From the NCBI RefSeq assembly GCF_030732065.1, contig NZ_JAVBHX010000001.1, positions 248,001 to 312,000 on the forward strand: a stretch of 64,000 nt of DNA, written 5' to 3'. This DNA is from Oceanimonas aquatica (GTDB lineage Bacteria; Pseudomonadota; Gammaproteobacteria; Enterobacterales; Aeromonadaceae). Each line of letters starts with the position of its first letter. Position 1 is the stretch's first letter. The notes under the pieces were generated by a model that was not told the origin of the DNA, made no database searches, and saw nothing but the letters and a program-made list of their open reading frames with translations. The translations under genes and the position numbers were made by a program. Below, in pieces: positions 9,610 to 34,531 of this stretch.

Positions 9610-10956
9610 ATGAACAGTGCTGGCATGTTTTCGTCGGTATCTTCCAACAGAAAGATTGATCCTTCCCGTCGCCGGGGCCAGTTCAAGCCCGATGGCTCTC
9701 TCAACGACAACGACCGGGTCGAGATAGGCCCCACCGAGCTGGCTTTTGCCGAGTGGGAAGCGCTGGGCATTACACCGCCCACCCTGAAGCGCATGCGCGA
9801 ATACCGGCTGCAGCGGATTGTGGCCGAGCTGCAAAAGCGCGATCTGGCCGGGGTGCTGCTGTTTGACCCGCTGAATATTCGCTACGCCACCGACACCACC
9901 AACATGCAGTTGTGGATCACCCACAACCATGCCCGCGCCTGTTTTGTGTCGGCGGCCGGTTATGTGATTTTGTGGGACTTTCACAACTGCGAGCATCTGT
10001 CGGCCCACTTGCCGCTGGTAAAAGAAGTGCGCGGCGGGACTGCCTTTTTCTATTTTGAAACCGGCAACAAAACCGAGCAGCACGCGGCCCAGTTTGCCGC
10101 CGAGGTGCAGTCGGTGCTGCGGGAGCACGGCGGCAGCAACAATCGCCTGGCGGTCGACAAGATTGAAATGGCCGGCTTTACCCAGTTACAGCGCCTCGGC
10201 ATTGAACTGTTCGACGGCCAGGAGGTAATGGAGCTGGCCCGCGCCGTTAAGAACGAAGACGAAATCAACGCCATGCGTTGCTCCATTGCCTCCACCGAAA
10301 TTGCCATGAAGCTGATGCAGCAGGCCTCGGTGCCCGGCGTCACCGAAAACGACATCTGGTCCATTTTGCATGCGGAAAACATTCGCCGCGGCGGCGAGTG
10401 GATTGAATGCCGCATTCTGTCTTCCGGCCCCCGTACCAACCCCTGGTTTCAGGAGTGCGGCCCCCGGGTGGTGCAGCAGGGTGAACTACTGGCCTTCGAC
10501 AGCGACCTGATAGGCCCCTACGGCATGTGCGCCGATATTTCCCGTACCTGGCTGATTGGCGACGGCGTGCCCACGGCGGAGCAGAAACACCTGTACCGGG
10601 TTGCCCATGAGCATATTCAGTACAACATGAGCATATTAAAGCCGGGCATGAGCTTTCGGGAAGTGACCGAAGCCGGCCTGCTGTTGCCCGAGGCCTACCG
10701 GCCCCAGCGCTACGGCGTGATGATGCACGGGGTGGGGCTATGCGATGAATATCCCTGTATTCGTTACCCCGAAGATCTGGAATGCCATGGCTACGATGGG
10801 GTGCTGGAGCCGGGCATGACCCTGTGCGTGGAGGCCTATGTGGGCGCCGTGGGTGGCAAGGAAGGCGTGAAGCTGGAAGATCAGGTGCTGATCACCGAAA
10901 CCGGTGTTGAAAACCTGACCTCCTATCCCTTTGAGGCGGCATTGCTGGCCGACTAA
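9610..10956 (+). CDS. dddP: DMSP lyase DddP (M24 peptidase fold)
   Basis: 448 residues. DddP cleaves dimethylsulfoniopropionate to dimethyl sulfide and acrylate in the cytoplasm. The sequence matches what I remember of marine DddP along its whole length: KIDPSR near the N-terminus, IEIGPTELAF-like stretch, FDPLNIRYATDTTNMQLW, and HAENIRRGGEWIE. The metal ligands of the family are all present, at D297, D299, D309, H373, E408 and E423, offset by two from the numbering I recall for the crystallised Ruegeria enzyme. Ordinary M24 aminopeptidases lack this set of flanking motifs, so a creatinase or prolidase is less likely. AGGGG precedes the ATG. It is followed by a LysR gene on the same strand and lies in an osmolyte-catabolism region; Oceanimonas is a genus known to carry dddP. 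Confidence 0.88.
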   Translation: MNSAGMFSSVSSNRKIDPSRRRGQFKPDGSLNDNDRVEIGPTELAFAEWEALGITPPTLKRMREYRLQRIVAELQKRDLAGVLLFDPLNIRYATDTTNMQLWITHNHARACFVSAAGYVILWDFHNCEHLSAHLPLVKEVRGGTAFFYFETGNKTEQHAAQFAAEVQSVLREHGGSNNRLAVDKIEMAGFTQLQRLGIELFDGQEVMELARAVKNEDEINAMRCSIASTEIAMKLMQQASVPGVTENDIWSILHAENIRRGGEWIECRILSSGPRTNPWFQECGPRVVQQGELLAFDSDLIGPYGMCADISRTWLIGDGVPTAEQKHLYRVAHEHIQYNMSILKPGMSFREVTEAGLLLPEAYRPQRYGVMMHGVGLCDEYPCIRYPEDLECHGYDGVLEPGMTLCVEAYVGAVGGKEGVKLEDQVLITETGVENLTSYPFEAALLAD

Positions 10957-11017: not shown

Positions 11018-11162
11018 CTGTTAGTTATATTTTCGACGAAGATGCCTGCGATCACGTTACTGCTTTCCGGCCATTTGATAAATCTGGCCGTCCAGCAAAA
11101 TAATGGTAGAGTGCGCGCAAAAAGGACAGGAGCAGTCCGTCCGACATACGTCAGGAGTGACC

Positions 11163-12098
11163 ATGAAAATCAAGCCACTGCCGCCCATGAACAGCCTTAT
11201 TGTGTTCGAGGCGGCGGCCCGCCATCTCAGCTTTACGCTGGCCGCCAATGAACTGAGCGTGACTCAGGGCGCCATCAGCCGGCAGATCCGCCAGCTGGAG
11301 GAATATCTGGGCAAGGATCTGTTTGTGCGGGCCAACCGCAACATATCCCTCACTCCTACCGGCATGCAGTATTACCAGACCATTTACCGCGCCCTGCTGG
11401 ATGTGGCCAGCGCCACCGGTGAAATCAAGAAGTGGCAGGGCGAGCAGCAAATTACCGTGGCCACCACCAATGCCATGGCGGCGCTGTGGCTGCTGCCCAA
11501 GGTGGCGGTGTTTCAGCAGCAGCATGAAGAGGTGGATCTGCGCATACTGGCGTCGGATCAGGTCACCGACTTTCGCCGGCTCGACTGCGATCTGGCGCTG
11601 TTCTACTGCCGGCTGCCGCCGGCGGACATGAAGGTAACCCGGCTGTTTCCCGAAGAGGTGTTTCCGGTGTGCAGCCCCGCTTACCTGGAGCGCGCCAAGG
11701 AATGGGGCTCACCGGAAGAGCTGTTCGGCAGAACCCTGCTCTATCTGGATGAATCCCAGCGCGACTGGGTGAGCTGGCAGGAGTGGTTTGAGCAGGTTGG
11801 CTGGTCCAATATCACCCCCCGCAACCGGGTTAACATCAACAATTACCCCATGCTGATACAGGCTGCCATTAACGGTCAGGGCATTGCCCTTGCCTGGGGC
11901 TCGCTGGTGGATGAATACCTGGAAAGCGGCGCCCTGGTGCGGCCGGTGGATACGGTGCTGCGCACCCCGGCCAGCTTCTGCATGCTGGAGCCCCTGAACC
12001 GGGGCGTGGTGCCCAACAGCGTGAAAACGTTCCGCAGCTGGCTGCTGGAACAATTACCGGGCCAGGTGGGCGAAAAAGGCCTGCACGAAAATAGTTGA
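11163..12098 (+). CDS. LysR-family transcriptional regulator (GcvA-like)
   Basis: 311 residues from ATG 11163, which has AGGAG six bases upstream; frames reading further upstream lack a binding site. An N-terminal winged helix-turn-helix (SLIVFEAAARHLSFTLAANELSVTQGAISRQIRQLEEYLG, about residues 8-48) is followed by the periplasmic-binding-type effector domain. The phrase LSFTLAANELSVTQGAISRQI is typical of the GcvA/AmpR branch. It stands between dddP and the BCCT/Rieske gene pair, so it is a natural candidate regulator of either; the dyads at 14036-14143 could be its sites. No target can be proved from sequence. Confidence 0.9.
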   Translation: MKIKPLPPMNSLIVFEAAARHLSFTLAANELSVTQGAISRQIRQLEEYLGKDLFVRANRNISLTPTGMQYYQTIYRALLDVASATGEIKKWQGEQQITVATTNAMAALWLLPKVAVFQQQHEEVDLRILASDQVTDFRRLDCDLALFYCRLPPADMKVTRLFPEEVFPVCSPAYLERAKEWGSPEELFGRTLLYLDESQRDWVSWQEWFEQVGWSNITPRNRVNINNYPMLIQAAINGQGIALAWGSLVDEYLESGALVRPVDTVLRTPASFCMLEPLNRGVVPNSVKTFRSWLLEQLPGQVGEKGLHENS

Positions 12099-12219: not shown

Positions 12220-13926
12220 TTATTTTCCGGCGACGGGGTTGTTCCAGTTCACTGTGGGGGCCGCCTCAACGGTGTCGTCCAGCAGTGGCTGAATGGAGCC
12301 ATCCAGCTTGGTCGGGGCCGGGCGCACGTTATCCGGTACCATGGCCCAGGGCTTGGGCTCGCGCCGAATACTGTGCACCAGGGTCAGGCTCATTACCGCA
12401 ATAAAGATGGAGATGGGGAAACCGGCAATGATGGAGGCGGTCTGCATGGCCTTCAGCCCGCCGGCATAGAGCAGCACCCCGGCAATGGCCGCAATCATGA
12501 TGCCCCACAATATCCGTATGGGCGTGGGCGGCTCAGGGTTACCCAGTGAATCCAGGGTACAGAGGATCAGGGTGCCGGAGTCGGCCGAGGTAATAAAGTA
12601 GGTGCCCAGCAGCAAGCAGGCCAGTACGCTCAGCAGCTTGCCCATGGCGCCCGCATCCAGCTCGTCGAACAGGGTAAACAGTGCCAGGGTGGTGTCCTTT
12701 TTGGTGGCTTCCAGAATGGGGCCGCCGGTAAAGGGCGCCTGCGCCGGCTCACCGGCCTCGGCCAGTGCCACTGCTTGCTGCTCGTAGGCTACCCGAGCGT
12801 CCTGCTCTACCTTCAGCGCCGAACCACCAAACGCAGCCATCCACAAAAAGGTCATCAGGGTGGGCACGATCAGGGCGCCGCCAATCAGTTCGCGAATGGT
12901 GCGCCCCTTGGAAATGCGCGCCACGAACATGCCCACAAAGGGAGCCCAGGTCATCCACCAGGGCCAATAGTAGGCGGTCCACCAGTTCTGCCAGCCGGAG
13001 TCACTCTGGGCATCACTCCAGAAACTCATGCCCACCACCTGGCTGCTGTAGTCGCCAATGCCTTCCAGGAAGGAGTGCAGAATATAGCGGGTGGGGCCAA
13101 TGTAGAGCACCACCAGTACCATGAGTACCGACAGCACCATGTTCCATTCCGACAGCCGGCGTATGCCCCGGCCCACGCCCGACAGCACAGAGGCCACGGC
13201 GCAGGTACAGAGCACCACAATGATCAGCAACTGCACACCAAAGCTGATGCTGGTGCCAAAGACCTGGTTCAGGCCGGAGTTAATCTGAATTACCCCCATC
13301 CCCAGGGTCTGGGATATGCCAAAGGCGGTAATGGCCACGGTGAGAATGTCCACTGCATGGCCGATGGGGCCATAGATACGCTCACCGATCAGCGGATACA
13401 GAATGGAGCGCAGGGTCAGCGGTAGTCCCTTGCGGTAGGAAAAATAGGTCAGGGCCAGGGCCACGATAAGAAAGATGGACCAGGGGTGCAGACCCCAGTG
13501 GAAAAAGGTCAGCCACATCGACACCCGGCCGGATTCGTTGCTGAGCCCTTCTGCAAACGGGTTGCTGGCATAGTGCCACATGGGCTCGGCCACCGACCAG
13601 AATACCAGGCCAATACCCATGCTGCCCGAGAACAGCATGGCAATCCACGACAGATAGCTGAACTCGGGTTTTTCATCATCCTTGCCCAGGCGAATGTGAC
13701 CAAAGCGGCTGATCATCAGATACAGCAGAAGGCCGGTGACCAGGCTGACCACCAGCAGGTAAAACCATTTCATGTTGTGCAGCAAGGCACCGGACACGGT
13801 TTCAAAATACTGACCGGCCTGGTTGGCCATGATGGCGCAAAACAATACAAAACAGATAACCAGCACCTTGGAGGCAATGGTCACCGTTGGATTTAGTCCT
13901 TTCAGGATCCCGGATGTAGCACGCAT
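12220..13926 (-). CDS. BCCT-family betaine/carnitine/choline transporter
   Basis: 568 residues with about twelve membrane helices. It would import a quaternary ammonium compound or DMSP across the inner membrane. The BCCT signature is present: SGSMGIGLVFWSVAEP (about residues 100-115) and the tryptophan-rich segment YYWPWWMTWAPFVGMFVARISKG. The glycine-rich stretch has the MGIGL form seen in sodium-coupled betaine carriers rather than the GxGxGD form of proton-coupled choline carriers, which suggests Na+ symport of a betaine. A short polar C-terminal tail follows the last helix, without the long osmosensory extension of BetP. It faces away from the Rieske operon across a 340-base shared control region, which implies that the imported compound feeds that operon. 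Confidence 0.93.
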   Translation of the reverse strand: MRATSGILKGLNPTVTIASKVLVICFVLFCAIMANQAGQYFETVSGALLHNMKWFYLLVVSLVTGLLLYLMISRFGHIRLGKDDEKPEFSYLSWIAMLFSGSMGIGLVFWSVAEPMWHYASNPFAEGLSNESGRVSMWLTFFHWGLHPWSIFLIVALALTYFSYRKGLPLTLRSILYPLIGERIYGPIGHAVDILTVAITAFGISQTLGMGVIQINSGLNQVFGTSISFGVQLLIIVVLCTCAVASVLSGVGRGIRRLSEWNMVLSVLMVLVVLYIGPTRYILHSFLEGIGDYSSQVVGMSFWSDAQSDSGWQNWWTAYYWPWWMTWAPFVGMFVARISKGRTIRELIGGALIVPTLMTFLWMAAFGGSALKVEQDARVAYEQQAVALAEAGEPAQAPFTGGPILEATKKDTTLALFTLFDELDAGAMGKLLSVLACLLLGTYFITSADSGTLILCTLDSLGNPEPPTPIRILWGIMIAAIAGVLLYAGGLKAMQTASIIAGFPISIFIAVMSLTLVHSIRREPKPWAMVPDNVRPAPTKLDGSIQPLLDDTVEAAPTVNWNNPVAGK

Positions 13927-14266
13927 AACTCCTCCCTCTTCCCTCTGCGTATTACGTTTTTACGTGAAAATGGTTAACGGTCTGTTAACGGCGTGAGATT
14001 AGGGATAGCGAAAGACGCACTCAAGTTATTTTTTCTCATCCATGAGTGATAACAGCTCATGCGGTGGCTGTTTAACCGTCTAAAGCAGCACGGGTTGGTT
14101 ACATTTGAACCACATTACAAATGGATGACAAAAGCTCATCCATACCCGGCCAAAAAGTCGTTTGTTTGTTGCCACCTTGTTAACCAGAATCCACCCCATC
14201 GGCACCCGAGTGTGCCAACGACAAGGAACCACGCAGCCAACACTGCGTCACTGTGGAGAAAGCAAG
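13927..14266. promoter_or_regulatory. Divergent control region with three TCATCCAT sites
   Basis: This gap separates the BCCT and Rieske starts. It contains an inverted repeat ATGGATGA (14121-14128), 7-base spacer, TCATCCAT (14136-14143), and a third TCATCCAT at 14036-14043, exactly 100 bases from the second. Eight-base half-sites in a dyad plus a distant accessory site are typical of LysR or AraC-type regulators. A TTTTTTCTCATC tract and the pair GGTTAACGG / TCTGTTAACGG near 13971-13990 are also present, the latter close to the BCCT promoter. No clear -35/-10 pair could be chosen. Confidence 0.5.
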
Positions 14267-15454
14267 ATGAGCAACGTCAGCGAAACCATCATTCCGGTAC
14301 AGCAGGTAGATAGCGTACTGAATCCGATTGTGGAAGCCAGCGGCATGCCGAACGTCGCCTACACCAGCGAAGAATATTTCGCGTTTGAGCGCGACAAGGT
14401 AATTGGCAAAACCTGGGCCTGTGTCGGCTTTGCGTCCGATCTGATCAAGAACGGTTACGTCATGCCGGTCAGCTTTATGAAAATGCCGCTGCTGATGATG
14501 CGCAACAAGGATGGCGAGGTGCAGGTGTTCCACAACGTCTGCAGCCACCGAGGCATGCAGCTGGTGCACGAAGCCGGTGAAGTGCAGGGCATGATCCGCT
14601 GCCCCTATCACTCCTGGACCTATGATCTGAACGGCAACCTCAAGGGCACCCCGCACATCGGTGGCATTGCCAAGCACAAGGACGAGCGCTTCAAGTGTGA
14701 AAAGCACGGCCTCAAGCCGCTGCGCTCCGCAGTATGGATGGACATGGTGTTCGTTAACCTGTCCGGCGACGCCCCTTCCTTTGAAGAGCACATTGCACCG
14801 CTTGAAGCCCGCTGGAACGAATTCCTGGGGAACGATGGCCTGAGCCTGCTGCGCCGGGTCAACATGGGCGGCCACCTGGAAATTGAGGTGGAGAGCAACT
14901 GGAAGCTGACCGTGGAAAACTACTGCGAAGCCTACCATCTGCCCTGGGTGCACCCGGCCCTGAACACCTATTCCAAGCTGGAAGATCACTACAACATCAT
15001 GTTTGAAGACCGCTTTGCGGGGCAGGGCAGCTACAAATATGACCTGTCCGGCACCGCCGGCACGCATCTGCCCATGTTCCCGAGCTGGCCCCAGGACAAG
15101 CTGCGCCACGCCGAATATGTGGCGCTGTTCCCCAACGTGCTGCTGGGCATTCAGGCGGACCATGCCTTTGCCATGATGATTGACCCCATTCGTGCAGAAC
15201 AAACCGTTGAGCGGCTGCGCCTGTACTACGTGGGCGACGAAGCCACCCGCGACGAATACGCCGCCTGCCGTACCGCCACCCTGGAGTCCTGGCGCGTGGT
15301 GTTCGGCGAAGACATCGGTGCCGTGGAAGGCATGCAGCGAGGCCGTCATTCCCCCGGTTTCGGTGGTGGCGTCTTCTCACCCGAGATGGACCTGCCCACT
15401 CACTTCTTCCAGAAGTGGCTGGCAACCCAGACCAAGGCCGCCCTGGAGGACTGA
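14267..15454 (+). CDS. Rieske non-heme iron oxygenase, quaternary-amine clade
   Basis: 395 residues from ATG 14267, preceded by GGAG; a TTG 35 codons upstream is unlikely. The Rieske 2Fe-2S ligands are C92, H94, C112 and H115 (CSH...CPYH). The mononuclear iron ligands are H224, H229 and probably D349. The residue bridging the two metal sites is Glu221 (NYCEAYH) where ring-hydroxylating dioxygenases have Asp; Glu is the mark of the branch acting on carnitine, glycine betaine, choline or stachydrine. Overall identity to GbcA or CntA/YeaW as I remember them is low, although the C-terminal GEDIGAVEGMQRG parallels the CntA ending. It would hydroxylate or demethylate an N-methylated substrate using O2. 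The gene begins an operon; the next gene starts two bases past its stop. Substrate unknown. Confidence 0.88.
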   Translation: MSNVSETIIPVQQVDSVLNPIVEASGMPNVAYTSEEYFAFERDKVIGKTWACVGFASDLIKNGYVMPVSFMKMPLLMMRNKDGEVQVFHNVCSHRGMQLVHEAGEVQGMIRCPYHSWTYDLNGNLKGTPHIGGIAKHKDERFKCEKHGLKPLRSAVWMDMVFVNLSGDAPSFEEHIAPLEARWNEFLGNDGLSLLRRVNMGGHLEIEVESNWKLTVENYCEAYHLPWVHPALNTYSKLEDHYNIMFEDRFAGQGSYKYDLSGTAGTHLPMFPSWPQDKLRHAEYVALFPNVLLGIQADHAFAMMIDPIRAEQTVERLRLYYVGDEATRDEYAACRTATLESWRVVFGEDIGAVEGMQRGRHSPGFGGGVFSPEMDLPTHFFQKWLATQTKAALED

Positions 15455-15456
15455 AC

Positions 15457-16884
15457 GTGCAACATTATCTGAACTACATCGATGGCCAGTGGCTGAATGC
15501 CGACCGCCAGATCACCGTGATGAACCCGGGCACCGGTGAGCCCTATGCGACCATTGCCCAGGCCGGCATTGAAGATGCCGACCAGGCCATGGCCGCCGCC
15601 CGCCGCTGTGTGAACAGCGGCGCCCTGAGCGACGTGCGCCCGGCCCAGCGTACCACCTGGATGCTGAAGGCGGCCGAGGCCATTCGCGCCATCGCCGACG
15701 AAGGCGGCCTGGTGGCCTGCCGTGAAAACGGCAAAAGCCTGAACGACGCCCGCGACGAGTTTATTGAAGCGGCCCGTTACTTCGAATATTACGCCGGCAT
15801 GGCCGACAAGATTGAGGGCATCTCGGTGCCCCTGGGCAAGGACTACGTGGACTTTACCCAGTACGTGCCCTTTGGTGTCTCGGTACAGATTGTGCCCTGG
15901 AACTTTCCGGTGTCCATCTGCGCCCGCTCCCTGGCCCCGGCGCTGGCCGCCGGTAACGCCGTGGTGATCAAGTCGCCGGAAATCTCGCCGCTGGCCATGA
16001 CCCTGCTGGTCAAGGCCGTGGAAGAAGCCGGTTTCCCCAAGGGCGCGGTCAACCTGCTGTGTGGCAAGGGCTCGGAAGTGGGCAGCCATCTGGTGCAGCA
16101 TGCCGACACCAACCAGATTGTGTTTACCGGATCTGTGCCCACCGGCCAGCGCATCCTGAAGGATGCCGCCGAGCGCGCCACGCCGTCGGTGATGGAGCTG
16201 GGTGGCAAGTCGGCGGCCATCGCCCTGGCGGACGTGGATCTCGACACCCTGCTGGCCAGTGTGAAAGTCGGCATCTTCTTTAATGCCGGCCAGGTGTGCT
16301 CGGCCATGTCCCGCCTGCTGGTGCAGCGCAGCCGCTACGACGAGGTCAAGGCTGCCGTGGTGGCGCTGGCCGAGAGCCTGACCATTGGCCAGGGCGAGGG
16401 CAACCCGGATCTGACGCCTGTGGTGTCCGAAGGGCAGCAGCAGCAGGTGCTGGCGATGATCGAGCAGGCCCGTGCCGAGGGCGCCACCGTGCTTACCGGC
16501 GGCGTGGCACCGGACTTGTCCGGTTACTTCGTGGCCCCCACCGTGATTGAAGCGACTGCCGATATGAGCATTGCGCAGCAGGAAGTGTTTGGTCCTGTGC
16601 TGGTGATCATGCCCTTTGACGACGAAGACGACGCCGTGGCGCTGGCCAACGGTACCGACTTTGGCCTGGTGGCCGGCGTGTTCGGCGAAGGCCTGAACCA
16701 GACCCTGCGGGTGGCCAACCGGCTGCGGGGCGGCCAGGTGTTCATCAACGAATGGTTTGCCGGCGGCATTGAAACGCCCTTTGGCGGTGTGGGGCTGTCG
16801 GGTTTTGGCCGCGAGAAAGGACAGGAAGCCATTTACAGCTATGTCCAGACCCGCAATATCGGCATTCGCCTGCGTCAGGGCTGA
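15457..16884 (+). CDS. NAD(P)-dependent aldehyde dehydrogenase (betaine-aldehyde-like)
   Basis: 475 residues from the GTG at 15457, which has GGAGGA nine bases upstream. It oxidises an aldehyde to the acid in the cytoplasm. Family motifs: VPWNFP (147-151), Lys172 (VVIKSPE), the nucleotide-binding FTGSVPTG, catalytic base Glu247 in MELGGKS, and catalytic Cys281 in FNAGQVCSAMSR. The C-terminal GGVGLSGFGREKG is also typical. Closest in feel to betaine-aldehyde and semialdehyde dehydrogenases; the substrate is presumably the product released by the Rieske enzyme (malic semialdehyde from carnitine, or another semialdehyde, are options). Two bases separate it from the Rieske gene, so translation is coupled. 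Confidence 0.9.
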   Translation: MQHYLNYIDGQWLNADRQITVMNPGTGEPYATIAQAGIEDADQAMAAARRCVNSGALSDVRPAQRTTWMLKAAEAIRAIADEGGLVACRENGKSLNDARDEFIEAARYFEYYAGMADKIEGISVPLGKDYVDFTQYVPFGVSVQIVPWNFPVSICARSLAPALAAGNAVVIKSPEISPLAMTLLVKAVEEAGFPKGAVNLLCGKGSEVGSHLVQHADTNQIVFTGSVPTGQRILKDAAERATPSVMELGGKSAAIALADVDLDTLLASVKVGIFFNAGQVCSAMSRLLVQRSRYDEVKAAVVALAESLTIGQGEGNPDLTPVVSEGQQQQVLAMIEQARAEGATVLTGGVAPDLSGYFVAPTVIEATADMSIAQQEVFGPVLVIMPFDDEDDAVALANGTDFGLVAGVFGEGLNQTLRVANRLRGGQVFINEWFAGGIETPFGGVGLSGFGREKGQEAIYSYVQTRNIGIRLRQG

Positions 16885-16899
16885 CGGCCATCAGTAAAA

Positions 16900-16920
16900 G
16901 GGCCGGTGACATACCGGCCC
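16900..16920 (+). other. Intercistronic hairpin within the Rieske operon
   Basis: GGGCCGGT and ACCGGCCC form an 8-bp stem around GACAT, 15 bases after the aldehyde dehydrogenase stop. It lacks a T-run, so it is more likely to protect the upstream message or tune expression than to terminate. Confidence 0.5.
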
Positions 16921-16957
16921 GAAGCAAAGCAGTAACAGGGTAGTGGGGGAGAGAACG

Positions 16958-18346
16958 ATGAAAAAGTGGTTATGCATCATCTGCGGACTGATTTATGACG
17001 AAGCCAAGGGTTGGCCGGCCGACGGTATCGCGCCGGGCACCCGCTGGGAAGACGTGCCGGACGACTGGCTGTGTCCCGATTGCCTGGTGGGCAAGGCGGA
17101 CTTCGAAATGATCGAGATCACCGACGACGAGCCGGCAGAAGTGGTGGCCATGGCCGAGACGCTGGCGCCGGCGGCCGAGCTCACTCTGGAGCCGGTGGTG
17201 ATCATCGGCACCGGCCACGGTGGCTATCAGCTGGCGGCGGCGCTGCGGGCCCGCGCTCCCGAACTGCCCATTACCCTGTTTACCGCCGATGACGGCGCCC
17301 TTTACAGCAAGCCGGCGCTGTCCAATGCCCTGGCTCTGGGCAAGGACGGCGACGGCCTGGTGAGCGAAACCGCCCTGGCCTGGGAGCAGCGCCTGGGCGT
17401 GCGGGTTTATCCCCATACCCGGGTGGAGAAAATCGACCGGGAAAACAAGCGGCTGCACACCAGCATTGGTGAATATCCCTATGGCCGCCTGGTGCTGGCC
17501 ACGGGTGCTTCACCCATTCAGATTCCGGTGGCCGGCATTCCGGTGGCCGGCGAGCAAAGCGCCATGGTAAGCGTGAATGACCTGCTGGATTACCGCCGTT
17601 TCCGTGACCAGCTGGCCGGTAAAAAGCACGTCACCATTCTGGGTGACGGCCTTATCGGCTGTGAGTTTGCCAACGACCTGGCGGCCCAGGGCATTGGCGT
17701 GACCGTGGTGGGGCTGGGCCAGTGGCCCATGGAACGACTGATCCCGCAACCCTTGGGTGAAGCGCTGCAACGGGCCCTGAGCGGCCTGGGAGTGGAGTGG
17801 GCGCTGCAGGACAGCATCTCCCACATTGAGGCCGACGGCGACAGCTATCGCCTGCAGCTGCAAAGCGGCGCTGAACTGGCCACGGATCTGGTGCTGAGCG
17901 CTGTGGGCCTGCGGCCCAACATTGGCCTTGCCCAGGCGGCAGGACTGGCCACCGGCCGCGGCATCAGCGTGGATTTGACCCACGCCACCAGTGACCCCGC
18001 CATTTTTGCCCTGGGCGATTGTGCCGAGGTAGCGGGCCAGTGGGCACCCTATATCGCGCCCATCAATCAGGCCATTCCCGCCCTGGTGGAGACCCTGCTG
18101 GGCCGCACTACCGAGGCCAGCCTCAAGGCCTCGCCGGTGCTGGTGAAAACCCCGGTGCTGCCGCTGTCGGTACAACCGGCGGTGGGCCCCGGCGAGTGGC
18201 GGGTAGAGGCTCATGGTGAAGAGTTGGCCGCCGGCTTTTACGGCGCCGACGGCAGCCTGAGCGGCTTTGCGCTGCTGGGCCGCGAGCTGCAGAGCCAGCG
18301 CAGCCAGTGGCTGGAACACCTTAACCCTGCCCGCAACGTGGCCTGA
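16958..18346 (+). CDS. Rubredoxin fused to rubredoxin/NAD(P) reductase
   Basis: 462 residues from ATG 16958 (GGGAGAG upstream). Residues 1-50 are a complete rubredoxin: iron ligands C6, C9, C39 and C42 (CIICG...CPDC) with the conserved [15 protein letters not shown]. After an acidic linker, residues 75-400 are a FAD-dependent pyridine-nucleotide oxidoreductase with [17 protein letters not shown] (FAD), [19 protein letters not shown] (NAD(P)H) and [10 protein letters not shown]. Free-standing homologues pass electrons from NADH to rubredoxin and on to alkane hydroxylase or oxygen detoxification. Here it sits in an operon whose Rieske oxygenase has no ferredoxin-reductase partner of the usual FNR type, so it is a reasonable candidate for the electron donor. 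Inference, not shown. Confidence 0.9.
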
Positions 18347-18356
18347 GGAACACATC

Positions 18357-19673
18357 ATGATCGCCTTACCCAACGACGACAACAGCTGCGGCTGGTATCA
18401 GGCGCTGCCCCCGGCGGCGCCCGCCACCCGGCTCAAAGGTACCCAGAAAGCCGATTATGCGGTGCTGGGCGCGGGCTTTGCCGGCCTGGCCGCCGCCCGC
18501 CGGCTTGCCGAGCTCGAGCCCGAGGCCCGCATTGTGCTGGTGGATGCCCAGCGGGTGGCGGAAGGCGCTTCCGGGCGCAACTCCGGCTTTGTGATTGACC
18601 TGCCGCACAAGTTTGCCCTGGAGCACCCGGATCCGGTGCACAAGCAGAAACTGCTGGGCCTCAACCGGGCCGCCATTGCCCAGTTGCAGGGGCTGGTCGA
18701 GCGCCACAACATCGATTGCCAGTGGTCCGCTGTGGGCAAATATCAGGGCGCGGTGGGGGAGCGGGGTATCGCCTTTCTCGAGCACTTCGAGCACCTGATG
18801 AAGGGGCTGGGCGAGCCCTATCAGTGGGTGGACAAAACCGAACTGAGTCGGGTGCTGGGCACTGGCTTCTACAGTCAGGCCATTTTCACCCCCGGTTGCT
18901 ACCTGATGCAGCCGGCGGCCCTGGTGCGCGGCATGGCCGAGCATCTGCCTGATAACGTGGAGCTGCTGGAGCAGTCACCCATTCGTTCACTGCGCCGCGA
19001 AGGCGGCCAGTGGCGGCTGCAGGGAGACGAGGGTGAGATTCAAGTCCCGACCCTGTTGCTGGGGGCCAGCATTTTTACCCGCGAGTTCGGTTATCTCAAA
19101 AACCGGCTGCTGCCGGTAATGACCTTCGCCAGCTGGACCCGGCCGCTGACCGACGACGAGCTGTCCCGCTACGGCGGCGAGCTGAACTGGGGTCTGACCC
19201 CGGCGGATCACGCCGGCACCACCCTGCGCATGACCGCCGACCGGCGCATTATTATTCGCAACAGCTACAAACACGTGCCCAAATACGGTGCCAGTGTCAG
19301 CGAGGCGATGCGCCGGAAAATTCAGGCCGATCACCGCAAGGCGTTTCTGGACCGTTATCCGGCGTTGGCCGAGGTGCCCTTTACCCATACCTGGGGCGGC
19401 GTTTACGCCATCTCCCGCAACTTCACCAACTTCTTTGGTGAGCTTGAAAGCGGCGTGTATGCCAGCGCCTGTGACAACGGCGTGGGCGCGGCCTGGGGCA
19501 CCATCTCCGGCACCCTGATGGCGGACATGGCGGTGGGCGCCGACTCCCAGTTGCTGCGGGACATTTGCCGAGTGACCGGCATGCCCAGCCTGAACCCGCC
19601 CGAGCCCTTCCTGGGGCTGGGGGTGAAAAGCCGTATTCGCCTCGCCAAGTGGCAGAGCAGGAGTGAACTGTGA
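18357..19673 (+). CDS. FAD-dependent amine/amino-acid oxidoreductase (DAO family)
   Basis: 438 residues from ATG 18357 after GAGGAACACATC. The dinucleotide-binding motif ADYAVLGAGFAGLAAARRLAE (about 32-52) is followed by VDAQRVAEGASGRNSGFV, the flavin-contact signature of the DadA/PuuB/glycine-oxidase group. The C-terminal region has TWGGVYAISRNFTNFFGEL and DNGVGAAWGTISG. It should oxidise a C-N bond of a secondary amine or amino acid, giving an imine that hydrolyses to aldehyde plus amine; an N-methylated amino acid would be consistent with the operon. The next gene overlaps its stop as GTGA. Substrate not predictable from sequence. Confidence 0.87.
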   Translation: MIALPNDDNSCGWYQALPPAAPATRLKGTQKADYAVLGAGFAGLAAARRLAELEPEARIVLVDAQRVAEGASGRNSGFVIDLPHKFALEHPDPVHKQKLLGLNRAAIAQLQGLVERHNIDCQWSAVGKYQGAVGERGIAFLEHFEHLMKGLGEPYQWVDKTELSRVLGTGFYSQAIFTPGCYLMQPAALVRGMAEHLPDNVELLEQSPIRSLRREGGQWRLQGDEGEIQVPTLLLGASIFTREFGYLKNRLLPVMTFASWTRPLTDDELSRYGGELNWGLTPADHAGTTLRMTADRRIIIRNSYKHVPKYGASVSEAMRRKIQADHRKAFLDRYPALAEVPFTHTWGGVYAISRNFTNFFGELESGVYASACDNGVGAAWGTISGTLMADMAVGADSQLLRDICRVTGMPSLNPPEPFLGLGVKSRIRLAKWQSRSEL

Positions 19674-20023
19674 CCAAAGAAGTAAAACTGATCGACAGCA
19701 AAGAGCTGGATTTTACCGTGCGGGGCGACACGCCCGGCATGGCCTATGTGGCCCGGGCCCTGAGCCCGGAAGTGTCGCCGAACATCGGCGTGGGTTTTGC
19801 CCGCTGGGAAGGGGCCGAAGTGGCCTGGACCCTGCTTTACGACGAAGTGGTGTTCGTGATTGAAGGCTGCTTTGAGCTCACCGCCAACGGTAAAAAGCAC
19901 GAAGTGCGCCCCGGCCAGATGCTGTGGATCCCCGAAGGCACCGAGCTGGTTTACGGTGGCCATGCCCTCTTTGGCTATGTGGTTCATCCGGGCAACTGGA
20001 AGGAGCTGCACGGCCTGGCCTGA
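19670..20023 (+). CDS. Cupin protein (EutQ-like), last gene of the Rieske operon
   Basis: 117 residues starting at a GTG that overlaps the preceding TGA. A single cupin barrel: LLYDEVVFVIEGCFELTANGKKHEVRPGQMLWIPEGTELVYGG. The usual metal-binding first motif is altered (no HxH), so a metal-dependent activity is uncertain. It resembles EutQ-type cupins of ethanolamine use, here unlinked to eut genes. A role as small-molecule binding or isomerising accessory to the oxidative pathway is inferred from the operon only. Confidence 0.8.
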   Translation: MTKEVKLIDSKELDFTVRGDTPGMAYVARALSPEVSPNIGVGFARWEGAEVAWTLLYDEVVFVIEGCFELTANGKKHEVRPGQMLWIPEGTELVYGGHALFGYVVHPGNWKELHGLA

Positions 20024-20056
20024 ACGCAACCGTTATACGACTCCAAGCACTATCTT

Positions 20057-20080
20057 GCCGGCCCGTTGGCCGGCTTTTTT
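20057..20080 (+). terminator. Intrinsic terminator ending the Rieske operon
   Basis: A 7-bp stem GCCGGCC / GGCCGGC with loop CGTT followed by six T residues, 33 bases past the cupin stop. Confidence 0.85.
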
Positions 20081-26582: not shown

Positions 26583-27638
26583 TCAGCCGGCGGCGTCCCG
26601 CCGCAACTGCCGGGCCTGACTGGGAGATACGCCGAAGAAGTCCTTGAAGCAGTGGCTGAAGTGGGTGGAGCTGGCAAAGCCGCAGGCCACCGCAATGTTG
26701 GCAATGCTGTCGTCGCTCTGCAGCAGCAGGCGGCGTGCCTGGGTAATGCGCAGCTCCAGATAGTAGCGCGAGGGCGTGGCCTGCAGATGAGTCTGAAACA
26801 GCCGCTCCACCCGCCGGCGCGACAGCCCCACATAACCGGCCAGCTCTTCAATGCCGAGCGGCTCTTCGATATTGCTGTTCATCAGCCGCAGCAGATCCCG
26901 AAGCGGCCCGGGCAGGGCCGGGTCGTTTTCCGCCAGGGTCAGCCGGGTTTCGCTGCTGTCGGCGAGGCGGTCGCTGCTCAGAATTTCACGAATGGCACGC
27001 ACCGTGTCGGGGCCGTGCAGCCGTTCAATCATCATCAGCATCATTTCCAGGGCGCTGCTGGGGCCGGCGCTGGTGAGAATGCGGGCGTCCACCACCATGG
27101 CCTGGTTGGACACCTCCACCGCCGGAAAGCGCTCTCGGGTATAGCTGTGGTTGTCGGGATGAATGGCGCAGCACAGGCCGTCGAGCACGCCGGCATGGGC
27201 CAGGGCCACGGCGCCATTCCACAGACCGCCCAGCACTTTTTGCCGCTTGGTGGCGAGTTTGAGCTTGCGGGACAGTTCGCCGTGCTCGGCCAGGCTGCAG
27301 CGAAAGCCGCCGCACACCACCACCACATCGAGGGCGTCATCACCGTCCAGGGGCAGCTCGGCCAGGATGTGGTTGGCGGAAATGTCGATGGCCAGATCAC
27401 TGTGCACCTTGGGGCTGTCGAGACCGTAGCTGGTAATGGTGAACAGGGGGGTGGACTGCACCAGGTTGGCGGTGACCAGGGCATCGACGGCGGCGGTAAA
27501 AGCCATCATGGAAAAGTGGGGCAGCAGCACAAAGCCGACGCGCACCGGCGCATTGCCGGCGGTGCGGGCAGGCAGAAAGGCGCTGTTGGTGTCACGCAGC
27601 CGGTGGCTGAAGTGACGTTTTTCACTGACTTGAGACAT
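26583..27638 (-). CDS. gbdR: GbdR, AraC-type regulator of betaine/sarcosine catabolism
   Basis: 351 residues from ATG 27638. An N-terminal DJ-1/PfpI-like (GATase1) ligand domain (about 35-205: RVGFVLLPHFSMMAFTAAVDAL, DVVVVCGGF) is joined to a C-terminal AraC helix-turn-helix domain (LGIEELAGYVGLSRRRVERLFQTHLQATPSRYYLELR). This GlxA-type architecture and the divergent position next to glyA-soxBDAG fit GbdR, which in Pseudomonas activates glycine-betaine, dimethylglycine and sarcosine genes when dimethylglycine or betaine is present. The cysteine usual in PfpI enzymes is replaced in context CGGF, so it is a sensor rather than an enzyme. It may also control the Rieske operon. Confidence 0.88.
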   Translation of the reverse strand: MSQVSEKRHFSHRLRDTNSAFLPARTAGNAPVRVGFVLLPHFSMMAFTAAVDALVTANLVQSTPLFTITSYGLDSPKVHSDLAIDISANHILAELPLDGDDALDVVVVCGGFRCSLAEHGELSRKLKLATKRQKVLGGLWNGAVALAHAGVLDGLCCAIHPDNHSYTRERFPAVEVSNQAMVVDARILTSAGPSSALEMMLMMIERLHGPDTVRAIREILSSDRLADSSETRLTLAENDPALPGPLRDLLRLMNSNIEEPLGIEELAGYVGLSRRRVERLFQTHLQATPSRYYLELRITQARRLLLQSDDSIANIAVACGFASSTHFSHCFKDFFGVSPSQARQLRRDAAG

Positions 27639-27960
27639 GGTTTCGATGGTGCGGGCGCCGCAGAGAGAGCCGGCCTTATTGATGTTACTGCGTGTTAACC
27701 GGAGTTTACCCCGCCGGCGCCCCCTTTGCACTCTTTGCTCTGTGTACAACCCTGGCGACAATGTCGGATCCCGATCACGAATGTTGCCGGAATGTGATTT
27801 TTTTGTCGCAAATACGCAGCATTGGGCCGCAACCAGTCATCTGCACATCCTTCCCCGGCAGTAGTATGCCGTCAAAGCACAATCGGCAGACCGTCATCAC
27901 GGTGCCGGCTGAATGAACACAGACCCGGGCGGAGCCCGGCGCGAACAAGGAGGTTACGAC
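27639..27960. promoter_or_regulatory. Divergent gbdR / glyA control region
   Basis: 322 bases between the two starts. A strong ribosome site AAGGAGG sits just before glyA. No riboswitch fold, including the tandem glycine aptamer, could be recognised, and no convincing dyad for GbdR could be fixed by eye. Two nearby TGCCG-type half motifs (around 27785 and 27858) may be worth testing. Confidence 0.4.
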
Positions 27961-29214
27961 ATGTTCAGCAAGCACACCCGCATTCAGGATATCGACCCGG
28001 CCCTGTGGTCGGCCATGGAAGAAGAGGCCAGCCGTCAGGAGCAGCATATCGAGCTGATTGCTTCGGAAAACTACACCAGCCCGGCCGTGATGGAAGCCCA
28101 GGGCTCGGTGCTTACCAACAAGTATGCGGAAGGCTATCCGGGCAAGCGCTATTATGGCGGTTGCGAAGCGGTAGACAAGGTGGAACAGCTGGCCATTGAT
28201 CGTGCCAAGGAACTGTTCGGCGCCGACTACGCCAACGTTCAGCCTCATTCCGGCTCCCAGGCCAACGCCGCCGTTTACATGGCCCTGTGCGCCCCCGGCG
28301 ACACCGTGCTGGGCATGAGCCTGGCCCACGGCGGTCACCTGACCCACGGTGCCAAGGTGAGCTTCTCCGGCAAAATCTACAACGCCGTGCAGTATGGCCT
28401 GAACGAAACCACCGGTGAGGTGGACTACGACCAGGTTGAGCAGCTGGCGCTGGAGCACAAGCCCAAAATGATTGTGGCCGGTTTTTCCGCCTACTCCCAG
28501 ATCATGGACTGGGCCCGGTTCCGCGCCATCGCCGACAAGGTGGGTGCCTATCTGTTTGTCGACATGGCCCACGTCGCCGGTCTGGTGGCCGCCGGTGTGT
28601 ACCCCAACCCGGTGCCCTTTGCCGACGTGGTCACCACCACCACCCACAAGACCCTGCGCGGCCCCCGTGGCGGCCTGATCCTGGCCAAGGCCAACCCGGA
28701 GCTGGAAAAGAAATTCAACGGCGCCGTGTTCCCCGGTGGCCAGGGTGGCCCGCTGATGCATGCCATCGCCGCCAAGGCCGTGGCCTTTGCCGAGGCACTC
28801 AAGCCCGAGTTTCGCGATTACCAGCAGGCGGTGGTGGAAAACGCCCAGGCCATGGTGGAAGTGTTCCAGAAGCGCGGCTTTGACGTGGTCTCAAACGGTA
28901 CCGAGAACCACCTGTTCCTGCTTGACCTGTCAGCCCGGGGCATTACCGGCAAGGACGCAGACAGAGTGCTGGGTGAGGCCAACATTACCGTCAACAAAAA
29001 CGCCGTGCCCAATGACCCGCAGCCGCCCTTTGTGACCTCGGGCCTGCGCATCGGTACGCCGGCGGTCACCAGCCGCGGTTTCAAGGCCGAGCACTGCCGC
29101 CAGCTGGCAGGCTGGATCTGCGACATTCTGGAGCACATGGACGACCCGGACGTGATCATCTCGGTCAAGGACCAGGTGGCCAGCCTTTGCAGCTATTTCC
29201 CGGTGTATCGCTAA
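27961..29214 (+). CDS. glyA: Serine hydroxymethyltransferase
   Basis: 417 residues, full family length. The PLP enzyme interconverts glycine plus methylene-tetrahydrofolate and serine. Motifs: [19 protein letters not shown] near the N-terminus, the PLP lysine in [14 protein letters not shown], and the C-terminal [22 protein letters not shown] ribosome site. As first gene of glyA-soxBDAG-purU it is the catabolic copy: it takes glycine and the one-carbon unit released from sarcosine to serine. A second housekeeping glyA is expected elsewhere in the genome. Confidence 0.97.
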
Positions 29215-29262
29215 GCGGTTTCACCCAAACAGGACACGGAATTCAAACAACAGGTGACCCTC

Positions 29263-30516
29263 ATGCAGAAATATTCAGGATTCGGGCTGCTCAAGCATGC
29301 CCTGACTCACCACGAGAACTGGCAGAAAGTGTGGCGCAACCCCACTCCCAAGCACGAAGGCTACGATGTGATCATCGTGGGCGGCGGCGGCCACGGTCTG
29401 GCCACGGCCTACTATCTGGCCAAGGAGCACGGCATCACCAATGTAGCGGTGATCGAAAAGGGCTACCTGGGTGGCGGCAACACCGCCCGTAACACCACTA
29501 TCGTGCGCTCCAACTACCTGTGGGACGAAGCGGCCTGGCTCTATGAGCATTCCATGAAACTGTGGGAAGGCCTGGCCCAGGATCTGAACTACAACCTGAT
29601 GTTCAGCCAGCGCGGTGTACTCAACCTGGGTCACACCCTGCAGGACATGCGCGACATCGAGCGCCGGGTCAATGCCAACCGTCTGAACGGCATCGACAGT
29701 GAAGTGCTGTACACCAAGGACGTGCAGGATCTGGTACCGATTCTGGATTGCTCCAAGAACGCCCGCTACCCGGTGCTGGGTGCGTCCTGGCAGCCTCGCG
29801 GCGGCACCGCCCGTCACGACGCCGTGGCCTGGGGCTTTGCCCGCGCCGCCGACGCCATGGGCGTGCACCTGATCCAGCAGACCGAAGTGACCGGCATTCG
29901 CCGCGAAAACGGCGCCGTGACCGGGGTGGACACCACCCGCGGCTTTATCAAGGCGCCCAAGGTAGCCTGTGTGACCGCCGGCAACTCCGGCGTGATGGCC
30001 GACATGGTGGGCATGAAGCTGCCGCTGGAATCCCACCCGCTGCAGGCCATGGTATCCGAGCCGGTGAAGCCGATCCTCGACACAGTGGTGATGTCCAACC
30101 ACGTACACGGCTATGTGTCCCAGTCCGACAAGGGCGACCTGGTGATCGGCGCCGGTATCGACAGCTACCTGGGCTACGGCCAGCGCGGCTCCTTCCCGGT
30201 GGTGGAGCACACCATGGCGGCCATCGTCGAGATGTTCCCCATTTTCAGCCGGGTTCGTCTGAACCGCACCTGGGGCGGTATTGTGGATACCTGTCCGGAT
30301 GCCTGTCCGATTATTTCCAAGACCCATATCAAGGGCCTGTATTTCAACTGCGGTTGGGGCACCGGCGGCTTCAAGGCCACGCCGGGCTCGGGCAACGTGT
30401 TCGCCCACACCATTGCCAAGGACGATCCGCACCCCCTGGCCAAACCGTTTAACGTAGACCGCTTTACCACTGGTCACCTGATCGACGAACACGGCGCAGC
30501 CGGCGTTGCCCACTAA
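29263..30516 (+). CDS. soxB: Sarcosine oxidase subunit beta
   Basis: 417 residues from ATG 29263 (AACAGG eight bases upstream; a GTG at 29254 is the alternative). It starts [10 protein letters not shown] as in other SoxB proteins. FAD-binding motif [24 protein letters not shown] (about 34-57). His185 in GGTARHDAV corresponds to the residue that carries covalent FMN in corynebacterial enzymes. The beta subunit holds the sarcosine site; the heterotetramer oxidises sarcosine to glycine, passing formaldehyde to tetrahydrofolate. Gap to glyA is 48 bases. Confidence 0.96.
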
Positions 30517-30528
30517 AGGAGAGAGACA

Positions 30529-30816
30529 ATGTTTAACATTTATTGTCCGCACTGCGGCGAACACCGGGAAGAAGAAGAGTTCCACTACGGCGGCGAAGCG
30601 CACATTGCCCGCCCGGCGGATCCCAATGCGCTGAGCGACAAGGAGTGGGCCGAGTACCTGTTCCTGCGCAAGAACCCCCGTGGCCTGCATCACGAGATGT
30701 GGTACCACGCCGCCGGTTGCCGCAAGTTCTTCAATGCCACCCGGCACACAGTGACTTATGAAATCAAGGAAACCTACAAGGTGGGCGAACAGCCGCAGCA
30801 AGGAGGCCAGTCATGA
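30529..30816 (+). CDS. soxD: Sarcosine oxidase subunit delta
   Basis: 95 residues. Small zinc-binding subunit of heterotetrameric sarcosine oxidase. The N-terminal YCPHCGEHREEEEF and the later HAAGCRKFF supply the Cys/His ligands. GGAGAGA precedes the ATG, 12 bases after soxB. The stop overlaps the soxA start as ATGA. Confidence 0.95.
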   Translation: MFNIYCPHCGEHREEEEFHYGGEAHIARPADPNALSDKEWAEYLFLRKNPRGLHHEMWYHAAGCRKFFNATRHTVTYEIKETYKVGEQPQQGGQS

Positions 30817-33800: not shown

Positions 33801-33842
33801 CCGATTTTCTATGATCCCAAAGGAGAGCGTCAGCATGTCTAA
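30813..33842 (+). CDS. soxA: Sarcosine oxidase subunit alpha
   Basis: 1009 residues, the normal size. An N-terminal ferredoxin-like (Fer2_4) domain contains FNGKRYEGLAGDTIASALLANG and VGRSFKYSRPRGI; a central FAD/NAD(P) domain begins CDVLVVGGGAAGLTAALAAGRRG at about residue 170 and includes VVLATGAQERPLVF; the C-terminal third is a glycine-cleavage T-like folate domain (GILDASTLGKIDIQGKDAREFLQRIYTN ... GLMCKEDGMVFDDGV). The folate domain captures the methyl carbon as methylene-THF. Overlaps soxD by 4 and soxG by 8 bases, so the operon is translationally coupled. Confidence 0.96.
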   Translation: MSQQNRIQGKGRVDAGKPLNFIFNGKRYEGLAGDTIASALLANGVDVVGRSFKYSRPRGIMAAGADEPNCILQVGSSEATMIPNIRGTQAELYDGLTAASTNGWPNVDKDIMGVMGKLGGSMMPPGFYYKTFMYPQSMWPKYEHLIRKAAGLGRVPNERDPDTYDKLNHHCDVLVVGGGAAGLTAALAAGRRGARVILVDEQNEFGGHLLHSTQEINGQAPAAWVAAAVKELEALPDVTLLPRSTASGYYDQNFVSVMERRTDHLGERISGKTRQRLHRIRAGRVVLATGAQERPLVFANNDLPGCYVASALSTYVNRYGVAPGKQLVLMTCNDYGYQAAIDWLDAGREIVAVIDSRSKPDGDRYHQLKARGVKIYTGHGLIEATGKKRVNGAKVAPITSDGSRVTGDAVQLNCDIIATSGGWSPVVHLTAHTGSRPVWNADVIGFVPGETVQKQLLAGGMQGTYGLSAVLNEGLKAGREAAEATGYGELSANVVDADVNTTDPREDQAQALFLVPHSRATSRAPKQFVDYQNDVTAAGIELAVREGFESIEHIKRYTAMGFGTDQGKLGNINGMAIAANAMGKSIPETGTTIFRPNYTPITMGAFAGRDAGHLFDPARFSAMHAWHVKNGAEFEDVGQWKRPWYFPKAGEDMHQAVNRECVAARTSVGILDASTLGKIDIQGKDAREFLQRIYTNAWAKLNPGFCRYGLMCKEDGMVFDDGVTSCITDEHFVMTTTTGGAAGVLQWLELWHQTEWPELEVYFTSVTDHWATMTVSGPNSRKVLEKVCEDVDLAGDAFPFMTWKDATIAGVKGRIFRISFTGELSFEVNVQANYGMHVWEALMEAGAEFDITPYGTETMHVLRAEKGFIIVGQDTDGSVTPQDLNMNWCVGKNKPFPFIGQRSWSREDTARTDRKQLVGLKCKEAKTVIPEGAQIVLDPNHPVPVPMVGHVSSSYYSANLGHNIAMGVVKDGLNRMGETVYCPLADGRVLEAEITSPIFYDPKGERQHV

Positions 33843-34464
33843 CAACACCGCCAAACAGACTGAAGTACAACGCCAGGTGCGGGTGGAATCCCCGCTGTAC
33901 CACGCCAACCTGGAGACGCTGGCCAAACAGGATCAGCAGGGTGAAGTGGTGCTGCGCGAAAAGGCCTTTATGGGTCATCTGGTACTGCGCGGCAACGCCA
34001 GTAACGAGCTGTTCGCCAAAACCGTGGAAAAGGTACTGGGCGTGGCACTGCCCACCCGGGCCTGCAGCTCTGCCGAAAGCAGCAAGGCGCTGGTGCAGTG
34101 GCTGTCTCCCGACGAGTGGCTGATCATCACCGAAGGGGGTCAGGAAGGCCCGCTGCAGCAGGCGCTGCGCGAGCAGCTGTCCGGCCACTATGCCATCACC
34201 GATGTAAGCGGCGGCCAGACCGTGATTGAGCTGTCCGGTCCCAAGGCGGAAATGGTCATTCGCAAGTCGTGCCCCTACGATGTGCACCCGTCCAATTTCC
34301 CCACCGGCAAGTGTGTGGGTACCGTGTTCGCCAAGAGCTCGGCGCTGCTGCGCCGCACCGGTGCCGAGAGCTTTGAGCTGGTGATCCGCCGCAGCTTCTC
34401 CGACTACCTGTGGCTGTGGCTGCAGGATGCCAGCCGGGAATACGGCCTGGTGATCGGCAAGTAA
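33835..34464 (+). CDS. soxG: Sarcosine oxidase subunit gamma
   Basis: 209 residues from ATG 33835, with AAAGGAGAG upstream inside soxA. The sequence has the SoxG features LSPDEWLIITEGG, ITDVSGGQTVIELSGPKAEMVIRKSCPYDVHP and SFSDYLWLWLQDA, related to the GcvT fold but without catalytic residues; the subunit is structural. It is followed by a 34474-34493 hairpin (AGGCCCGG / CCGGGCCT) without a T-run. Confidence 0.95.
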   Translation: MSNNTAKQTEVQRQVRVESPLYHANLETLAKQDQQGEVVLREKAFMGHLVLRGNASNELFAKTVEKVLGVALPTRACSSAESSKALVQWLSPDEWLIITEGGQEGPLQQALREQLSGHYAITDVSGGQTVIELSGPKAEMVIRKSCPYDVHPSNFPTGKCVGTVFAKSSALLRRTGAESFELVIRRSFSDYLWLWLQDASREYGLVIGK

Positions 34465-34531
34465 CATAAATTGAGGCCCGGTCCGCCGGGCCTTACTGCA
34501 AGGGAACACGCATCGCCATGGGAGGCACAGC

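Follow-up and report, generated by a model that had tools for sequence, protein, structure and literature searches.

A five-gene operon headed by a Rieske oxygenase (RO) gene lies in the 64,000-nucleotide stretch of Oceanimonas aquatica DNA analysed here (the window; contig NZ_JAVBHX010000001.1, positions 248,001 to 312,000, in a genome of 3.45 Mb). The RO gene is followed by genes for an aldehyde dehydrogenase (ALDH), a rubredoxin fused to a rubredoxin reductase (RdR), a DAO-family FAD oxidoreductase and a EutQ-like cupin, and the operon is flanked by genes for a BCCT transporter and a LysR-type regulator. Together these genes are proposed to form a LysR-controlled module for the uptake and oxidation of a quaternary N-methylated zwitterion, probably a cyclic betaine of the proline-betaine or homarine type, a reading to which a probability of roughly 0.4 is given. 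The genes, their order, a repeated operator sequence, the fold class of the RO and the co-conservation of the parts are established by the analysis, whereas the reactions, the binding of LysR and the substrate are proposed. Betaines are large pools of carbon and nitrogen in the sea and in plants. Many genes for betaine degradation are unassigned, and this module, whose gene set is small and which has a single clear operator, sits in many cultured genera. A first-pass annotation of the window, made from its sequence, had called the operon unassigned; no description of this five-gene operon was found in the literature searched, which agrees with that label, but a homarine operon considered below may be the same.

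Gene order and a shared operator

The conserved five-gene order is more than chance. Named genomes were scanned with a profile of the RO alignment and the best 80 of 142 relatives were kept; these genome loci and four of 122 plasmid records make up an 84-locus tally. The loci were chosen by the likeness of their RO to that of the window (66-94% identity), and the tally describes what accompanies this type of RO, not the frequency of the operon. Plasmid loci L044-L046, L182 and L183 were inspected for context only, outside the tally, and genus labels, like the genome lists of the class sample used below, were transcribed by hand from search results. A search for the five-gene order in other genomes, as the first-pass annotation had advised, found RO-ALDH-RdR-FAD-cupin intact in 78 of the 84 loci. 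These span 21 labels of genus or higher rank, most often Pseudomonas (22), Acinetobacter (16) and Halomonas (9). Where 5.2 kb or more of downstream sequence was available, the order was full in 75 of 78 loci; of the six shorter loci it was full in three. Among the six exceptions, contig ends truncate L066, L120 and L128, L101 has no RdR, L114 has no cupin match, and L071 (Marinobacter sp. X15-166B) has an RdR reduced to its rubredoxin part and likewise no cupin match.

In the 78 full operons ALDH starts 0-72 bases after RO (gene ends being estimated from the matches), and RdR is 51-90% identical to that of the window, indicating that gene order has outlived much sequence change. A LysR homologue (at least 45% identity) lies within 9 kb of RO in 78/84 loci, and the order extends to RO-ALDH-RdR-FAD-cupin-LysR in Psychrobacter and Cupriavidus. 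The BCCT gene is found within the same distance in 62/84 loci, and 15 of the other 22 have a second BCCT type in the retrieved flank, bringing the count to 77/84. Among 148 genomes sampled from the order of the host, itself included, RO was present at E<=1e-60 in two, and two sampled genomes of the host's own genus had no RO at this threshold. This rarity, and the carriage of the operon on plasmids too, suggest that it has been transferred and lost. In L041 and 15 further Acinetobacter loci the cupin is followed by a 390-aa protein without a Pfam match (15907-17079 in L041), for which an outer-membrane porin would be a guess from its signal-like start.

A perfect inverted repeat (Table 1), situated within the 340-bp region that separates the divergent BCCT gene from the operon, is read as the predicted LysR site of a small dedicated regulon. 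The core of the repeat, ATGA-N7-TCAT, is found no more than 300 bp upstream of RO in 76 of the 84 operon loci against 0.65 expected from shuffles that preserve single-base composition only, and upstream of LysR in 17/78 loci. Sharing of the operator with distant RO loci was rejected, the core being found in 1/36 of these (0.15 expected by the same type of shuffle). Within the host genome the full operator occurs without mismatch at one site only; 13 other sites have three mismatches, and a reversed control pattern gave two sites. A second, weaker operator-like site at 14046-14060 has two mismatches to a consensus.

The five plus-strand genes span 14267-20023 with intergenic gaps of 2, 73, 10 and -4 bases, reproducing the coordinates, gene types and tight spacing first reported, as well as the facing BCCT gene and the bounding terminator, and a purine-rich stretch precedes the start of 5/5 operon genes (judged by eye). 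Since a terminator scan gave 15 terminator-like sites where 9.2 were expected, only the strong terminator behind the cupin gene was counted. The third gene had been called a rubredoxin reductase, which holds for its reductase domains but misses the N-terminal rubredoxin to which they are fused. Also absent from the first-pass annotation were the LysR gene, the operator and a dddP gene, which comes before LysR in the order upstream of the BCCT gene. Oceanimonas baumannii is the closest named relative at the locus (RO 94%, DddP 96% identical).

Table 1. Features of the operon and its surroundings, in window coordinates
Feature	Position	Strand	Basis
dddP, DMSP-lyase family (M24)	9610..10956	+	NCBIfam NF043017, 629.5 bits (cut-off 600); PDB 4rzy, E 1.2e-157
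LysR-type regulator	11103..12098	+	Pfam
BCCT transporter	12220..13926	-	PF02028, 572 bits
Operator-like perfect inverted repeat, ATGGATGA-N7-TCATCCAT	14121..14143	none	Repeat and mismatch searches
Rieske oxygenase (RO), 395 aa, signature NYCEAYHLPWVHP	14267..15454	+	PF00355, PF00848
Aldehyde dehydrogenase (ALDH), betaine-aldehyde-dehydrogenase-like	15457..16884	+	PF00171
Inverted repeat, 8-bp stem, in the ALDH-RdR gap; T run on - strand	16900..16920		Repeat scan
Rubredoxin (aa 1-54) fused to rubredoxin reductase (aa about 78-455), RdR	16958..18346	+	PF00301, PF07992, PF18113; PDB 2v3a, 2v3b
DAO-family FAD oxidoreductase	18357..19673	+	Pfam; best curated relative AmaA
EutQ-like cupin, 4-base overlap with the FAD gene	19670..20023	+	PF06249
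Rho-independent terminator, 7-bp all-GC stem and T6	20057-20074 (feature to 20080)	+	Terminator scan

The Rieske oxygenase and its electron supply

Residues C92, H94, C112, H115, E221, H224 and H229, among them every Rieske and iron ligand, are invariant across 24 RO sequences, and the motif N[YF]CE[AS]YHLP is carried by 118 of 127 collected sequences. In an RO tree (127 of 167 sequences kept, 76 used) the window RO falls together with its operon relatives in a single supported group of 33 rows (98/94), the deep forks being unsure because of long branches. Structure prediction, advised earlier as a check, gave an RO model (mean predicted local distance difference test score, pLDDT, 82.7) whose nearest folds are CntA, then Stc2 and 3n0q, and then terephthalate and other aromatic dioxygenases. 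This ranking favours a quaternary-ammonium compound as the predicted substrate. The likeness to CntA is distant (24-25% identity in the fold comparison) and the RO reaches 125 bits against the GbcA model NF058607 (cut-off 670) and is not a GbcA, in keeping with the earlier view that it is close to neither. A true GbcA is encoded elsewhere in the host genome (745.3 bits); glycine betaine therefore has a route of its own and was rejected as the main substrate. As regards Group V features, E221 aligns with the Glu of CntA, where E205 is the bridging Glu of the active-site motif, and some members, Stc2 among them, have a Cys-x-x-Cys pair near the mononuclear iron (accessible text of PMC10952381), positions held by A222 and L225 in the window RO. 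A third Rieske oxygenase of the host genome (G000:C18:144458-145597), 29% identical to the operon RO and below the GbcA cut-off, is perhaps a carnitine enzyme.

With CntA as the nearest solved structure, the operon might instead cleave a linear betaine (trimethyllysine, gamma-butyrobetaine or D-carnitine), whereby the RO would yield trimethylamine and a semialdehyde, the latter passing to ALDH, and the FAD enzyme would act on the amino acid product. The CntA cluster also has BCCT, RO, ALDH and LysR genes (accessible text of PMC6514802), the best curated relative of the FAD enzyme is the L-pipecolate oxidase AmaA, and the nearest solved transporter carries trimethylamine. However, the RO lacks the CXXC pair of CntA, and an FAD amino-acid oxidase would be unneeded for gamma-butyrobetaine or carnitine. 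In addition, the Acinetobacter locus L087 holds, besides the full operon, another RO 9 kb away, which shows the CntA-type motif NYLECYHCG and has an ALDH as its neighbour. Linear-betaine cleavage is considered unlikely, as is L-carnitine itself on the evidence of L087. Of the candidates put forward in the first-pass annotation (carnitine, stachydrine, trigonelline and homarine), carnitine thus recedes, while the rest are not narrowed to one compound.

The rubredoxin fusion is best read as supplying electrons to the RO, being the only redox carrier within the operon. The RdR of the window has the CxxCG..CxxC motif and the FAD/NAD and rubredoxin-binding C-terminal domains of a rubredoxin reductase system; the motif recurs in 81/81 RdR matches of the 84 loci, and the full fusion in 80. 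No FNR-type (GbcB/CntB) reductase was found by Pfam among the seven genes (five operon genes, BCCT and LysR), as the first-pass annotation had held. The typical supply of a Rieske oxygenase is a flavin reductase with a ferredoxin, and the word "rubredoxin" is absent from the accessible text of the 2025 review that describes this (PMC12445004); a literature search on Rieske oxygenase, rubredoxin and electron donor had a ferroptosis review as its sole match. If true, a rubredoxin-fed RO would be an additional electron-supply type for Rieske oxygenases. In L045, L046, L183, L145 and L153, three of them Rhodobacterales, a related RO has a PDR/VanB (FNR-type) reductase gene as its neighbour. Together with the DAO+GcvT genes found downstream of related ROs (see below), this suggests that the reductase and N-demethylase slots have been refilled by other families.

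Proposed route and candidate substrates

For a cyclic betaine, the following route is envisaged. The BCCT transporter, to judge from its family and Trp box, would import the betaine, and electrons from NADH would pass through the reductase domain and the rubredoxin domain to the Rieske cluster. The RO would then hydroxylate the ring carbon adjoining N+, with hemiaminal collapse, ring opening and formation of an aldehyde, which ALDH would oxidise to the carboxylate of an N-methylated dicarboxylic amino acid. The FAD enzyme may demethylate or oxidise this product towards a normal amino acid, possibly assisted by the cupin. A cyclic betaine is favoured because it is the simplest substrate class whose product would combine an aldehyde with a retained N-methyl amine in the same molecule.

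The transporter has as its nearest solved chain the trimethylamine transporter 8zw8, with the W-W-x-x-W box aligned; in BetP this box is the quaternary-ammonium site. ALDH scores best as betaine-aldehyde-dehydrogenase-like and lies below the curated cut-off of every family among the best 25 of 43 NCBIfam families. The adjacency of RO and ALDH points to an aldehyde-yielding cleavage, as in the cnt cluster, where an RO also stands next to an ALDH and cleavage gives an aldehyde (accessible text of PMC6514802). The match of the FAD enzyme to AmaA is far below the cut-off (116.7 bits, cut-off 600). Six of its relatives (40-54% identity) were inspected. Five of them lie with a gene for RidA or for a EutQ/cupin protein, and four with genes for TRAP or ABC transporters, a setting that suggests oxidation of amino acids aided by an accessory protein. 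The cupin has no HxH motif in its sequence, read by eye, and conserved positions are present in its alignment across loci.

Distant RO loci (40-61% identity), in 29/38 of which the RO was readable with a simple open reading frame (ORF) caller, bear on the last step. Phaeobacter has LysR-RO-ALDH-(79 aa) and then an 806-aa DAO+GcvT protein with the architecture of dimethylglycine dehydrogenase (DMGDH), an N-demethylating enzyme. A DAO+GcvT gene is found downstream of RO in 4/29 distant loci, two of the four without ALDH, and two Ruegeria plasmids have soxBDA genes downstream of a related RO with no adjacent ALDH. The Phaeobacter and Ruegeria arrangements and the surroundings of the FAD-enzyme relatives favour an N-methyl amino acid intermediate. 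The earlier proposal of a complete uptake-and-oxidation module, with an ALDH for a semialdehyde and an FAD enzyme for an N-methyl amino acid, is to this extent supported, the Phaeobacter and Ruegeria loci being independent evidence for its last step. In 10 loci (for example, L045 12589-12828) a distant RO or RO-ALDH is followed, immediately or at a short distance, by an uncharacterised protein of about 80 aa; one was tested and had no Pfam match.

Plain N-demethylation would make use of the same enzymes in a different manner, the RO stripping one methyl group as formaldehyde and the FAD enzyme the next, with ALDH as a general aldehyde scavenger. The placing of Stc2 among the nearest folds and the glyA and sarcosine-oxidase genes 8 kb downstream in the window are in its favour, but the ALDH scores, best with the betaine-aldehyde type and under the cut-offs given above, and the true GbcA elsewhere in the genome argue against it, and it is regarded as quite improbable. 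The downstream region (26583-35398) comprises a GbdR-like AraC gene, glyA, soxB-like, soxD and soxA-like genes, a 217-aa ORF in the soxG position and a purU-like gene; the glyA/sarcosine-oxidase/formyltransferase (purU-like) set lies 8-15 kb from the operon, and the GbdR-like regulator before it scores 258 bits, below its cut-off of 480.

A number of points tell against the cyclic-betaine reading and its rubredoxin-fed RO. Substrate and activity are predictions from sequence and modelled structure, and residues 224-237 of the RO model, iron ligands among them, have a pLDDT below 50. The FAD enzyme model is poor (mean pLDDT 64.9), for which reason identification of the enzyme by fold was rejected and its matches to glycine oxidase, sarcosine oxidase, DMGDH and others are of limited use. 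The nearest solved transporter carries trimethylamine, not betaine, and ALDH of the operon type comes directly after RO in 5/29 distant loci, of which two are near operon relatives. The median identity to the window (80 loci) is 85% for the rubredoxin domain versus 59% for the reductase domain, but this is weak support, rubredoxins being conserved generally. In L071 (12671-14229) the reductase domain is lost and a short rubredoxin ORF kept, but this locus also has no cupin match and a DddP-like match in two pieces, and the kept rubredoxin may reflect decay. L101 (Psychrobacter) has no RdR yet keeps the other four genes, and single-piece rubredoxin-reductase fusion matches are also found in records for which the operon is not known. 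Conversion of homarine to N-methylglutamate needs the loss of a ring carbon, which the five-gene scheme does not explain. Lastly, the racemase beside RO-ALDH in Leisingera is not close to 2pmq/4h2h, the structures of HpbD, and matches 2ps2 and 2pce far better. The hint of proline betaine is therefore weak; linkage of the operon to proline or hydroxyproline betaine through this racemase was rejected, the compounds themselves being left as candidates.

Among cyclic betaines, homarine would provide a published case if the operon were that of Ferrer-Gonzalez et al. (2026, Nat Microbiol), an identity that overlaps the cyclic-betaine reading and is considered somewhat unlikely. The carbon loss required is not explained by the enzyme types of the operon, and many of the hosts are Pseudomonas and Acinetobacter (38/78 full operons). 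Many host genera, on the other hand, are marine. The homarine route reportedly runs through N-methylglutamate to glutamate, with an operon named homABCDER; five genes and an R gene would agree in number with RO-ALDH-RdR-FAD-cupin-LysR as found in Psychrobacter and Cupriavidus. Mgd takes part in homarine catabolism according to the homarine study as cited in PMC13390433 (accessible text), and R. pomeroyi draws down homarine fast (accessible text of PMC12817926). Should the two operons be the same, the present one would already be known, and perhaps only its operator and its link to DddP would be new.

The neighbouring dddP gene raises the further suggestion that the operon serves a sulfonium compound, dimethylsulfoniopropionate (DMSP) or dimethylsulfoxonium propionate (DMSOP). 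The window gene exceeds its curated cut-off and is the only DddP match of the host genome at E<=0.001. In a class sample of 369 genomes, host included (RO at E<=1e-60, DddP-like at E<=1e-80), a DddP-like gene is present in 12/14 genomes with RO versus 8/355 others, or by genus in 8/8 versus 7/264 with the host counted, most of these ROs being distant relatives (38-61% identity). Shared habitat may explain part of this co-occurrence. Among the 84 operon loci a DddP-like gene lies within 9 kb of RO in 24, at varying places, including between ALDH and RdR inside the operon in L129, and in 21 of the 69 loci with long flanks on both sides; the alignment of these genes has 22 rows, without L071, L105 and L111. 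The Pseudomonas DddP-like neighbour in L127, the only one tested, scores 432.1 bits, below the cut-off of 600. Against a sulfonium substrate, 60/84 operon loci are without such a gene within 9 kb (59 with a Pseudomonas query), and in acrylate or dimethyl sulfide metabolism there is no evident part for RO, ALDH and an amine-type FAD enzyme to play. The operator is absent upstream of DddP-like genes (0/24), by which DddP was rejected as a regulon member. A sulfonium substrate is thus highly improbable, and the partnership of dddP with the operon is uncertain. A wider proposal, speculative and on balance doubtful, is that a new type of Rieske system fed by the fused rubredoxin-RdR carries out ring opening on a cyclic betaine and starts a widespread, dedicated LysR regulon for the salvage of N-methylated amino acids, with the travelling DddP-like gene possibly marking a native DddP substrate other than DMSP.

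Relation to known systems

The carnitine monooxygenase cluster (CntA, CntB, ALDH, BCCT, LysR, malate dehydrogenase) has in common with the operon a bridging-Glu RO, ALDH, BCCT and LysR. In contrast, the operon has no CXXC pair and, by Pfam among its seven genes, no FNR reductase or malate dehydrogenase, and it adds the rubredoxin-reductase fusion, the DAO enzyme and the cupin. RubA/RubB and AlkT, the rubredoxin and rubredoxin reductase of alkane oxidation, share the rubredoxin and reductase domains, but the operon joins these domains in a single protein and links them to a Rieske oxygenase. Glycine betaine demethylation (GbcAB, DgcAB, SoxBDAG) likewise has an RO first and flavin N-demethylation later, but the operon RO scores well short of the GbcA cut-off. 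A CAR carnitine module known from a Psychrobacter plasmid was considered and is a different cluster (accessible text of PMC6514802). The stachydrine demethylase Stc2, second nearest fold to the operon RO, is an RO acting on a cyclic betaine, and differs in having the Cys pair (accessible text of PMC10952381) in place of A222 and L225. The hom genes for homarine (Nat Microbiol 2026) are possibly the same operon.

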